Source: Natrinema salsiterrestre | GTDB taxonomy: Archaea; Halobacteriota; Halobacteria; Halobacteriales; Natrialbaceae | Direction of reading: 5' to 3' | Assembly: GCF_029502005.1 (NCBI RefSeq) | Contig: NZ_JAMQOT010000004.1 | Coordinates: forward strand, 62,001-126,000 | DNA length: 64,000 nucleotides | Notes under the pieces: model-generated | Seen by the model: only the letters and a program-made list of their open reading frames with translations | The model's database searches: none | Told to the model about the DNA's origin: nothing | Made by a program: the position numbers and the translations under genes | In this document: one piece after another, positions 52,490 through 57,997 of the stretch | How positions within the stretch are numbered: the first letter of the stretch is position 1 | How the letters are laid out: every line of letters begins with the position of its first letter

Positions 52490-53833
52490 ATGGTCGGTGC
52501 CGATCCCGTGACTGTCGGGGTATTGAGCCTTCATACGAGCAAGGAAACCAAGGCGATTCTCAACGCCGTCGAAGATCTCGGGCACGATTCCGAGTGGCTT
52601 CGAGCGGAGAACACGTCGATCAGCGTCGCGGACGGCAGTCCCGTCCTCGAGCCCGACGTCGACGTGATCGCGAACCGAATGCTGCTCTCGAACACCGAAC
52701 AGCCCGCCGAGGAGCTCGGGCTCGCGAACACGTTCTCCCAGCTCGTGCCGACGCTCAACGAGCCGAGCGCGGTGTTGACGGCGATCCACAAGCTCTCGAC
52801 TGCGTCCGCGCTGGCGGGGAACGACATCCGGACGCCGGACGTCACGCTCGCGCTCAGCGGCGACCGGTTGCGGGCCGCACGGGACCGATACGGTGAGGAA
52901 GCGGTGTACAAGACCGCGATCGGAACGCACGGGGGCGGGACCTGGAAAGTCGGCCCCGACGATCCGATCAACGCGAAGGTGGGCAACCGATACGCCTTCC
53001 TGCAGGAACTCGTCGACCAGGAGGACGTCCGCCACCGCGACCTCCGCGTCTACGTCGTCGGCGGCGAGGTCGTCGCCGCGATGTACCGCTACGCGCCGGA
53101 CAACGACTGGCGAACCAACGTCGCGCTCGGCGGCTCCGTCGAGGACGCGACCGACGATCTCCCCGAAGAAGCCGCCGAGATGGCCCGTCGCGCGGCCGAC
53201 GTCGTCGGTCTCGACTACGCCGGCGTCGACCTCGTCGAGGGCGACGAGGGCTGGTTCGTCCTCGAAGTCAACCCGACGGCGGGGTTCAAGGGACTCTACG
53301 AAGCGACGCAAGTGAGCCCGGCGCCCTATATCGCGAAAACGGCGATCGAACGCGCGGGCGGCGAGGTGGACGACGACCGCGTCCGAGATATTTCCAACGT
53401 CCTCGACGACTCCCGGCCGGCGGCCCAGCCGGCGGAGGCGATCACGAACGATACGGAGCCGGCCGTGATCGGCTACACCGAGGAGGTCGTCCTCTCCGGA
53501 ACGAGCGGCTCGAAGTCGGTGCTCGCGAAGTCCGACACCGGCGCGACGCGGACGAGCATCGACACCAGCCTCGCGGCCGACATCGGTGCCGGCCCGATCA
53601 AGTCCATCACGCGCATCCGCTCCGGCAGCAGCAAACAGTCGAAGAGCCGTCCGGTCGTCGACGTCGTCGTCGGCGTCGGCGGCAACCAGCACACCGTCAC
53701 GGCGAGCGTCGAGGATCGGAGCCACATGGATTATCCCGTCCTGCTCGGACGCGACATTCTGGGGAACTACCAGGTCGACGTGAGCCGCCGCATCGATAGC
53801 GACGCCAGTGATACGCCCGAAGAAGAGGAGTAA
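52490..53833 (+). CDS. RimK-type ATP-grasp ligase fused to retropepsin-like protease domain
   Basis: 447 residues. Residues 1-300: ATP-grasp of RimK family (VYKTAIGTHGGG, AFLQELVDQ, DYAGVDLVEGDEGWFVLEVNPT), which ligates an amino acid such as Glu to a carboxylate. Linker about 300-330. Residues 335-435: retropepsin-like, with active Asp349 in KSDTGATRTS and the closing LLGRDILGNYQVDVSRR. This resembles the zinc-dependent/aspartyl protease (RimB/COG4067-type) that opposes RimK. One polypeptide thus holds a ligase and a predicted hydrolase. TATA and SD are not clear; 90 bases after the flippase gene. Confidence 0.85.
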   Translation: MVGADPVTVGVLSLHTSKETKAILNAVEDLGHDSEWLRAENTSISVADGSPVLEPDVDVIANRMLLSNTEQPAEELGLANTFSQLVPTLNEPSAVLTAIHKLSTASALAGNDIRTPDVTLALSGDRLRAARDRYGEEAVYKTAIGTHGGGTWKVGPDDPINAKVGNRYAFLQELVDQEDVRHRDLRVYVVGGEVVAAMYRYAPDNDWRTNVALGGSVEDATDDLPEEAAEMARRAADVVGLDYAGVDLVEGDEGWFVLEVNPTAGFKGLYEATQVSPAPYIAKTAIERAGGEVDDDRVRDISNVLDDSRPAAQPAEAITNDTEPAVIGYTEEVVLSGTSGSKSVLAKSDTGATRTSIDTSLAADIGAGPIKSITRIRSGSSKQSKSRPVVDVVVGVGGNQHTVTASVEDRSHMDYPVLLGRDILGNYQVDVSRRIDSDASDTPEEEE

Positions 53834-53933: not shown

Positions 53934-54188
53934 ATGACGACGGTCCTCGCCTCCGCGCTCTCCGAGACGCCAGTGATGAGATCCGATGGGGTGGAACTGG
54001 GAACGGTTCACACCATTACGATGAACGTCGAAACGGGTGAGCTCGAACGGTTATTCCTCACGCCGACTATCGACGATCTCCGAGGGATCGACACGAACGA
54101 TGACGGGAAAATCGTCGTCCCGGCCCGCTGTATGAGCGACCTCGACGACTACCTGGTCGTCGATCTGACGAAGCGCGACTCGGGGTGA
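53934..54188 (+). CDS. Small PRC-barrel domain protein
   Basis: 84 residues: MTTVLASALSETPVMRSDGV, ELGTVHTITMNVETGELERLFL and VPARCMSDLDDYLVVDL describe a single PRC-barrel, a small beta-barrel found in photosystem-H and RNA-processing proteins. Single-domain members are common in haloarchaea; role unknown. It is the first of two PRC-barrel proteins flanking katG. A separate 296-base spacer and two TATA boxes sit before katG, so it is not clearly in one operon with it. Confidence 0.85.
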   Translation: MTTVLASALSETPVMRSDGVELGTVHTITMNVETGELERLFLTPTIDDLRGIDTNDDGKIVVPARCMSDLDDYLVVDLTKRDSG

Positions 54189-56632
<2,444 letters not shown>

Positions 56633-56722: not shown

Positions 56723-57997
56723 TCACTCGCTCCGGATGACGACTTCGTCGTCCGTGATCTCCATTATTTGCGAGGACTCGATCGGATAATCGTCGTCGCC
56801 GTGGCTCCCCCAGTCCATGCGCGCTTTGAGTCGGTCCGTCAGCCCCGGTTCCGGATCGACGTACGCCGTCTGGCCCTCGACTTCGGCGACCATTCCGATC
56901 TGCTGTCCCGACTCGTCGACGACGTCCTTCCCCTGATCGTCGTGGGAGAGTTCGACCGCCGACGCGCCCGCCATCTCGTCGGACGTTCCCATGCCGGACT
57001 CGCCGCTCGCCATCGACTCGTCACCCGTGGCACCGGCTTCCATCTCGCCGGTCTCCATGGTTTCGTACTCCTCCATATCGATGATCTCGCCCTCGATCGT
57101 CTCGCTGCGGACCACGTCGGACTCGACCAGCTCGGACTCCTCGAGGACGTATCGCATCTCCAACCGTTCGTCGAGCTCCTCCTCGACCGTCCGCCGCTCG
57201 ATGAGTTCGCTCTGGACGGCGTCGCCCTCGGTGCGCTGGCTCTGGATGACCTCCCGCTCGAGCACCTCGTCGGTGGTCACGTCCGACCGGACGACGTCGC
57301 TCTCGAGGATCGATCGCTGCACGCTCTCGAGTTCGATGTCCGTCTGGACGACGTCGCTTTCCATCTCCTGGTCTTGCTCGATGTCTACGTCTACGACGCG
57401 GCTCTCGACGATGTAGCGTTCGATCTCCTCGATCGTGTCGAGGCGGGTTTCGTCGACGGTCACCTCGATCATGTCGTCGGCGATGAATTCCGTCTCGACG
57501 ACCTCGCGGGACAGGAGCTCGGAATCGACGATCTCGCGTTCGACCAGGTCCGTGTCGACGACCTCGCTCTCGATCGTGTCCCGCTCGACGACCTCGGTCT
57601 CGACGACCTGCGTCTCGACGATTTCGGTCGTCACCGTCTCGCCCTGGCGGAGTTGCTCCTCCATTTCGTCCCGTCCGAGGTCGGCCCGTTCGAACGCGTG
57701 CTCGCGCTCGACGATCTCGAAGAAGCCCATTTCATCGCCGGCGGGTTCCGCCTCGTGATAGACGAAGACGAGGTCGTCGTCTTCGAACCGCTGCTCGAAC
57801 TCGTCCCAGGTGTACTCCTCGTGGTGCTCACCCATCTCGTCGCGGCGAGCGAAGGAGTGACCGTGGCCGTCGCTGTCTCGGACGCTGACCGGAACGGCGT
57901 CGCGAGCCTCGGCCCACTCTCGGATTCGCTCGGTATCCGTCGTCATCCGTCGCTGATCGGGTGCGTCCGCGTCGTTCGAGGGTGTCTCGTTTGCCAT
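56723..57997 (-). CDS. Pentad-repeat protein with PRC-barrel C-terminus
   Basis: 424 residues. N-terminal domain (about 18-100; RIREWAEARDAVPVSV, EYTWDEFEQRFEDDDLVFVYHE) resembles a small haloarchaeal domain in which a similar EISWEEFF...LVYQE pattern occurs. Residues 126-309 are about 36 five-residue repeats such as VVETE, VVERD, TIESE, VVDTD, LVERE and IVDSE, with one four-residue slip at 231-234. Then a Glu/Ser/Gly linker and a PRC-barrel-like domain (GKDVVDESGQQIGMVAEVEG, from about 347). It is transcribed towards katG, 90 bases apart. Function unknown; DUF2382-like stress proteins are the nearest analogue I can think of. Confidence 0.8.
   Translation of the reverse strand: MANETPSNDADAPDQRRMTTDTERIREWAEARDAVPVSVRDSDGHGHSFARRDEMGEHHEEYTWDEFEQRFEDDDLVFVYHEAEPAGDEMGFFEIVEREHAFERADLGRDEMEEQLRQGETVTTEIVETQVVETEVVERDTIESEVVDTDLVEREIVDSELLSREVVETEFIADDMIEVTVDETRLDTIEEIERYIVESRVVDVDIEQDQEMESDVVQTDIELESVQRSILESDVVRSDVTTDEVLEREVIQSQRTEGDAVQSELIERRTVEEELDERLEMRYVLEESELVESDVVRSETIEGEIIDMEEYETMETGEMEAGATGDESMASGESGMGTSDEMAGASAVELSHDDQGKDVVDESGQQIGMVAEVEGQTAYVDPEPGLTDRLKARMDWGSHGDDDYPIESSQIMEITDDEVVIRSE

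Follow-up and report, generated by a model that had tools for sequence, protein, structure and literature searches.

A conserved haloarchaeal three-part protein whose middle carries a five-residue hydrophobic period and is predicted to form a long beta-hairpin

The window analysed here, a stretch of 64,000 nucleotides from Natrinema salsiterrestre, contains on its minus strand (positions 56723-57997) an open reading frame (ORF) encoding 424 amino acids, which adjoins the catalase-peroxidase gene katG (54485-56632, plus strand) in convergent orientation. Beyond katG lies a small PRC-barrel gene (53934-54188, plus strand), reported in an earlier note on this DNA and real by its Pfam match (PRC, E 5.4e-5). 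It is followed outwards by a gene for a RimK-like ATP-grasp fused to a putative zinc-protease domain (52490-53833; PF08443 + PF05618), which is retained even where katG is absent. A TATA-box-like TTTATA is found immediately upstream of the katG start codon (54463-54487). No promoter or terminator was found by a scan of bacterial type. A plus-strand ORF of 454 aa was taken to be a high-GC artefact, because conservation tracks the minus-strand frame.

The 424-aa ORF is a real gene under purifying selection: compared with its nearest relative, which is 94% identical, dN/dS is 0.18 for the whole protein, 0.12 for the pentad region described below, 0.07 for the C-terminal domain and 0.44 for the linker. 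Protein identity is mostly 74-81% across the genus, and the set of homologues used throughout comprises 43 natural sequences with 28-81% identity. With a profile of residues 1-310, relatives were detected in 130 of 392 sampled genomes of the order, a count that includes a few matches to the N-terminal domain only, and in 39 of 95 genera. Whole-protein searches of Pfam, NCBIfam, PHROGs and PDB sequences returned no credible match. The protein is a member of a conserved, previously undescribed haloarchaeal family of three-part proteins, present in about one-third of the sampled genomes of the order. It has a pI of 4.05, no cysteine and two lysines. The earlier note had read it as modular, with a small N-terminal domain, a pentad-patterned middle and a PRC-barrel at the end, and this was right, the barrel being recognised by predicted fold and without a Pfam match (Table 1).

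Table 1. Parts of the 424-aa protein and their positions in the window
Part	Residues	Position (strand)	Remarks
N-terminal domain	15-108	57674..57955 (-)	alpha/beta (AlphaFold2 elements), invariant W-P-W-F
M1	119-170 (about 118-170)	57488..57643 (-)	pentad pattern cleanest here; predicted to form the first long hairpin strand
M2	176-217	57347..57472 (-)	second long strand; homologous to M1
Middle stretch	218-256	57230..57346 (-)	two short AlphaFold2 helices, 223-232 and 242-247; lower confidence
M3	257-309	57071..57229 (-)	homologous to M1, the last of the three pentad modules; predicted strand 260-284
Acidic flexible linker	310-347	56957..57070 (-)	pLDDT <50 at 318-346; 10-147 aa in homologues; dN/dS 0.44
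PRC-barrel-like domain	348-424	56726..56956 (-)	Foldseek and VIA fold match

Hydrophobic residues in the middle of the protein recur every five positions. For residues 126-309, the hydrophobic period-5 power was 5.7, a value that none of 5000 shuffles of these residues reached, their highest being 2.1. The phasing claimed in the earlier note could be reproduced (21 pentads at 126-230, a slip, LESD, at 231-234, and 15 pentads at 235-309). Its account of some 36 clean pentads stood as to the period, which is 5.0 and far above chance, but not as to the cleanness, with both first positions hydrophobic in only 20 of the 36 pentads and the full hydrophobic-hydrophobic-acid-x-acid pattern in only 10. 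The pattern is strict only in residues 121-170 and fairly strict in 290-309. Acidic residues are abundant, their own five-residue periodicity not being clear (267 of 5000 shuffles attain the value), and residues 119-309 contain no proline. Among the homologues, the M1 hydrophobic peak falls at 4.9-5.1 residues in all 43, and period 5 is significant for M3 in 42; most or all homologues have hydrophobic residues at M1 pentad positions 1 and 2, and almost never at positions 3-5.

The three pentad modules are related to one another: profile comparison with hhalign gave a probability of 95 for M1 against M2 and 96 for M1 against M3, values that the shared period itself may inflate. The earlier note proposed to check whether the number of repeats varies, and among the 43 homologues it does not. 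M1 is 52 aa long in 36 of them (range 52-65), the M2 core measures 25 aa and M3 53 aa with few exceptions, and length varies mainly in the tip between M1 and M2 (residues 171-181; 11-110 aa) and in the linker that precedes the PRC-barrel (10-147 aa). Nearly fixed modules next to a variable tip and linker indicate an old triplication frozen into the fold, rather than an expanding tandem array. Three residues of the pentad region, E133, E138 and S199, are invariant. In three homologues of one clade (L069, L071 and L075), the long tip insert opens with a CxxC motif (ECTSC, ECTNC and QCTSC), which is possibly metal-binding.

An AlphaFold2 run on the protein with the 43 natural homologues predicted strands at residues 138-173, 176-206 and 260-284 (36, 31 and 25 residues), with pLDDT of about 85-92 in the hairpin, and when residues 109-312 were folded alone the strands were placed at 135-173, 176-208 and 260-284 with pLDDT of about 77-90. 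The middle of the protein is therefore predicted to be one giant antiparallel beta-hairpin plus a third long strand, and the earlier suggestion of a long beta structure is supported by these predictions. Near-constant strands, with length change mostly in the tip and linker, are as expected of a hairpin. The pTM was low (0.33 for the whole protein and 0.49 for the ribbon alone), so that neither the position of M3 nor the overall shape is certain. When the ribbon alone was compared with solved structures, neither Foldseek (best E 0.014, probability 0.15) nor VIA (best Z 4.8, to a phage neck protein, counted as no match) returned a convincing match, which does not prove the fold new, and comparison with viral structures was likewise without a convincing match. 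Hairpins of pore-forming proteins were among the weak matches with very low probability, and a role as a pore is not supported, because the pI is 4.

The C-terminal domain (pLDDT mostly 84-90) is predicted to adopt a PRC-barrel fold. Foldseek matched residues 348-424 to CdpB1/CdpB2, a RimM and PRC proteins with probabilities of 0.99-1.00, and VIA gave Z-scores of 5.5-7.2 over 57-68 residues to matches that include CdvA, the best having Z 7.2 and an rmsd of 2.6 over 62 aligned residues. The Pfam model PF05239 has no match in the protein and reaches E <=1 in nine of the 43 homologues (best 0.0076). In its predicted fold, the domain resembles CdpB1/CdpB2, RimM and CdvA of the PF05239 superfamily, and the PRC domains of CdpB and RimM are protein docks, those of CdpB1/CdpB2 belonging to proteins that organise the archaeal divisome (PMC12186497); it differs from them in lacking a Pfam PRC match and in being joined to large extra domains.

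The N-terminal domain is a mobile module common to haloarchaea and soil bacteria. Searches with tblastn matched it to stand-alone proteins of 87-90 aa on plasmids of Rhizobium, Ensifer and Xanthomonas (E 2e-6 to 3e-3), small 'hypothetical proteins' with about 35% identity that differ in having neither ribbon nor PRC-barrel, and an alignment of 25 members places them together with W, P, W and F invariant. Haloarchaeal copies of the domain are also found by themselves (L154), as a pair ahead of a lamin-tail domain (PF00932, E 1e-16) in L151:493-1611 and L153:380-1453, and, in a 289-aa frame at L152:397-1263, as N-terminal domain, linker and PRC-barrel with no pentad ribbon. The existence of this ribbonless version marks the ribbon as a module, and the occurrence of the N-terminal domain alone, doubled and fused to PRC suggests a protein built from mobile parts, with the ribbon optional in the wider architecture. 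Neither NCBIfam nor Pfam yielded a family for the domain, Pfam giving only a partial likeness to Prim-Pol (PF09250), also for the copies in L151 and L153. On two of the Rhizobium plasmids (L136 and L138), the stand-alone genes lie near genes for DUF4142 and protein-L-isoaspartate methyltransferase, surroundings that perhaps represent a stress island.

Several other readings of the pentad region have to be weighed against this anatomy. Its period recalls the pentapeptide-repeat proteins, in which eight or more consecutive A(D/N)Lxx-type pentads build a right-handed four-sided beta-helix (PMC8145042); the earlier note had pointed to such helices, remarking that their classical consensus is absent, and had suggested a new halophilic solenoid. 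The period is indeed exactly five residues, and in one register four of the nine M1 pentads fit the consensus if Val, Ile or Met is allowed at the centre; without this relaxation, the broad published consensus fits at most one of nine M1 pentads and at most one of the 14 pentads of residues 235-309 in any register, and PF00805 has no match in the protein at E 10. Moreover, the buried positions of the repeat-helix fold are two apart, whereas here the hydrophobics are adjacent; the module lengths are nearly fixed among homologues and the repeat number does not vary; and AlphaFold2 predicted a hairpin, not a four-sided helix, in both runs. A helix of this kind, or another solenoid with an altered consensus, is accordingly very improbable. 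Somewhat less improbable, but still unlikely, is native disorder, with the pentad region as acidic sequence of low complexity and the AlphaFold2 strands as an artefact of its Val/Ile content. The low pTM and several stretches with pLDDT below 50 would agree with disorder; the fixed lengths, the three invariant residues, the dN/dS of 0.12 and a period kept across the order would not, and the linker and tip display what disorder looks like in this protein. The earlier note had also named DUF2382 (YsnF/AvaK), a bacterial general-stress-protein domain often joined to PRC, and proposed a profile-profile search. A divergent DUF2382 would share the type of partner (PRC and DUF2382 occur together in Kocuria) and a Val/Ile/Glu-rich, probably beta-forming composition, likenesses that concern the way of working only. 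We compared the protein with ten DUF2382 proteins from several bacterial groups, for which PF09557 scored 98-104 bits in the two tested as positive controls (L128 and L133). PF09557 matched neither the protein nor any of the 43 homologues, DUF2382 is absent from the host genome and not found above the cut-off in 345 genomes of the phylum, and hhalign of the pentad profile against the profile of the ten proteins gave a probability of 0.2%. None of the ten shows a period-5 signal (p 0.24-0.81), their hydrophobics peaking at 5.5-5.8 or 2.25-2.4 residues as opposed to 5.0 here, and their PRC-barrel, where the partner is PRC and not YflT, is located at the opposite end. No relative was found in viral contigs scanned for DUF2382; a plasmid search with a first DUF2382 consensus yielded nothing, and a second search was successful. 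Divergent descent from DUF2382 is thus hardly probable, and membership of both this family and the pentapeptide repeats is rejected, although a DUF2382-like role, combining a PRC-barrel with a long beta region, is possible.

The neighbourhood suggests yet another reading, in which the protein assists KatG in the defence against oxidative stress. The earlier note had considered a role in oxidative or osmotic stress and asked whether the gene travels with katG. Within Natrialbaceae it largely does: of 24 syntenic loci, 22 have katG next to the gene and seven have a detectable small PRC gene beyond katG, and on the other side of the pentad gene lies a base-excision glycosylase gene (HhH-GPD). Among 21 other loci, three of them from further Natrialbaceae, katG lies within 6 kb in Halomicrococcus (L061) only. 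The two Natrialbaceae exceptions (L052 and L054) keep the glycosylase and ATP-grasp genes on either side and lack katG there, and the tree places them as sister to a single clade with 100/100 support that is made up of the 20 katG-linked rows shown. Furthermore, the two genes are convergent and form no operon, and katG is present in 371 of the 392 genomes of the order against 130 for the pentad gene, lying far from it in the position-compared genomes outside the clade, Halomicrococcus excepted. Since katG is near-universal and yet adjacent mainly in one clade, the adjacency looks like a single event kept by descent, and its confinement to that clade and one other genome says little about function. 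The link to katG is mostly an accident of gene order, and an accessory role for KatG is very unlikely. No neighbour recurring across families points to a pathway; outside Natrialbaceae, neighbours are shared mainly in Halorussus and its near kin, which amounts to ordinary synteny. The main text of a salinity transcriptome study of Natrinema J7-2 mentions neither a PRC nor a catalase gene (PMC5604999).

While the anatomy is well supported, the function we infer from it. A scaffold or spacer is suggested jointly by the acidic composition without cysteine, the docking by PRC domains in other archaea, the length of the ribbon and the variability of the tip and linker. The most likely reading, to which we give even odds, is that the protein is a soluble scaffold consisting of an adaptor domain, a twisted beta-ribbon, a flexible linker and a PRC-barrel dock, with the ribbon derived by triplication of one pentad-patterned strand. 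Such a protein would be strongly acidic and probably cytoplasmic. M1 and M2 would pair as the giant antiparallel hairpin, to which M3 would add its long strand. On a flat strand, pairs of adjacent hydrophobics every five residues would point to alternate faces; a ribbon twist of about 36 degrees per residue would line them up on one side. The five-residue spacing could keep that side buried, as a step of five residues turns the side chain through 180 degrees and the twist would return it. The ribbon, which would be roughly 10 nm long, might then be a rigid spacer that also offers a binding surface, its tip bearing a lineage-specific insert, and the PRC-barrel might dock a partner protein, as those of CdpB and RimM do.

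A bolder version of this scaffold can be drawn from the alveolins, the IMC1 proteins of Plasmodium and Toxoplasma, whose Val-rich repeats are modelled by AlphaFold-Multimer as a twisted beta-ribbon in a filamentous scaffold (PMC12465100). By analogy, the pentad modules would be a new element, a twisted beta-ribbon following a five-residue rule, and ribbons of different molecules would pair or polymerise to form a PRC-anchored cytoplasmic scaffold. The likeness is one of working principle, a predicted twisted ribbon with a precedent for a filament role, and not of kinship. Alveolins carry EKIVEVP heptads within 12-residue repeats, are rich in proline and mostly need a partner to form the ribbon (PMC12465100), whereas here the period is 5.0, prolines are missing from residues 119-309 and repeats of the EKIVEVP type are not present; no alveolin-type Pfam family was among the matches of the protein or its 43 homologues. 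We consider this archaeal counterpart of the alveolin filament unlikely, though a shade less so than disorder.

The pentad modules offer a sequence rule, two hydrophobics per five residues, for a predicted long beta-hairpin, comparable to what heptads are for coiled coils; should a structure bear it out, similar ribbons could be recognised elsewhere by this rule. The protein also marks an undescribed family, together with a mobile N-terminal domain for which neither Pfam nor NCBIfam yielded a family. Searched against the wider phylum, the ribbon profile gave weak partial matches only, in two genomes outside the order. A 116-aa minus-strand frame from the same phylum, also outside the order (L155), contains near-perfect tandem ELIDE/ELVEG pentads, which might be either a simple repeat or a pentad strand of convergent origin.
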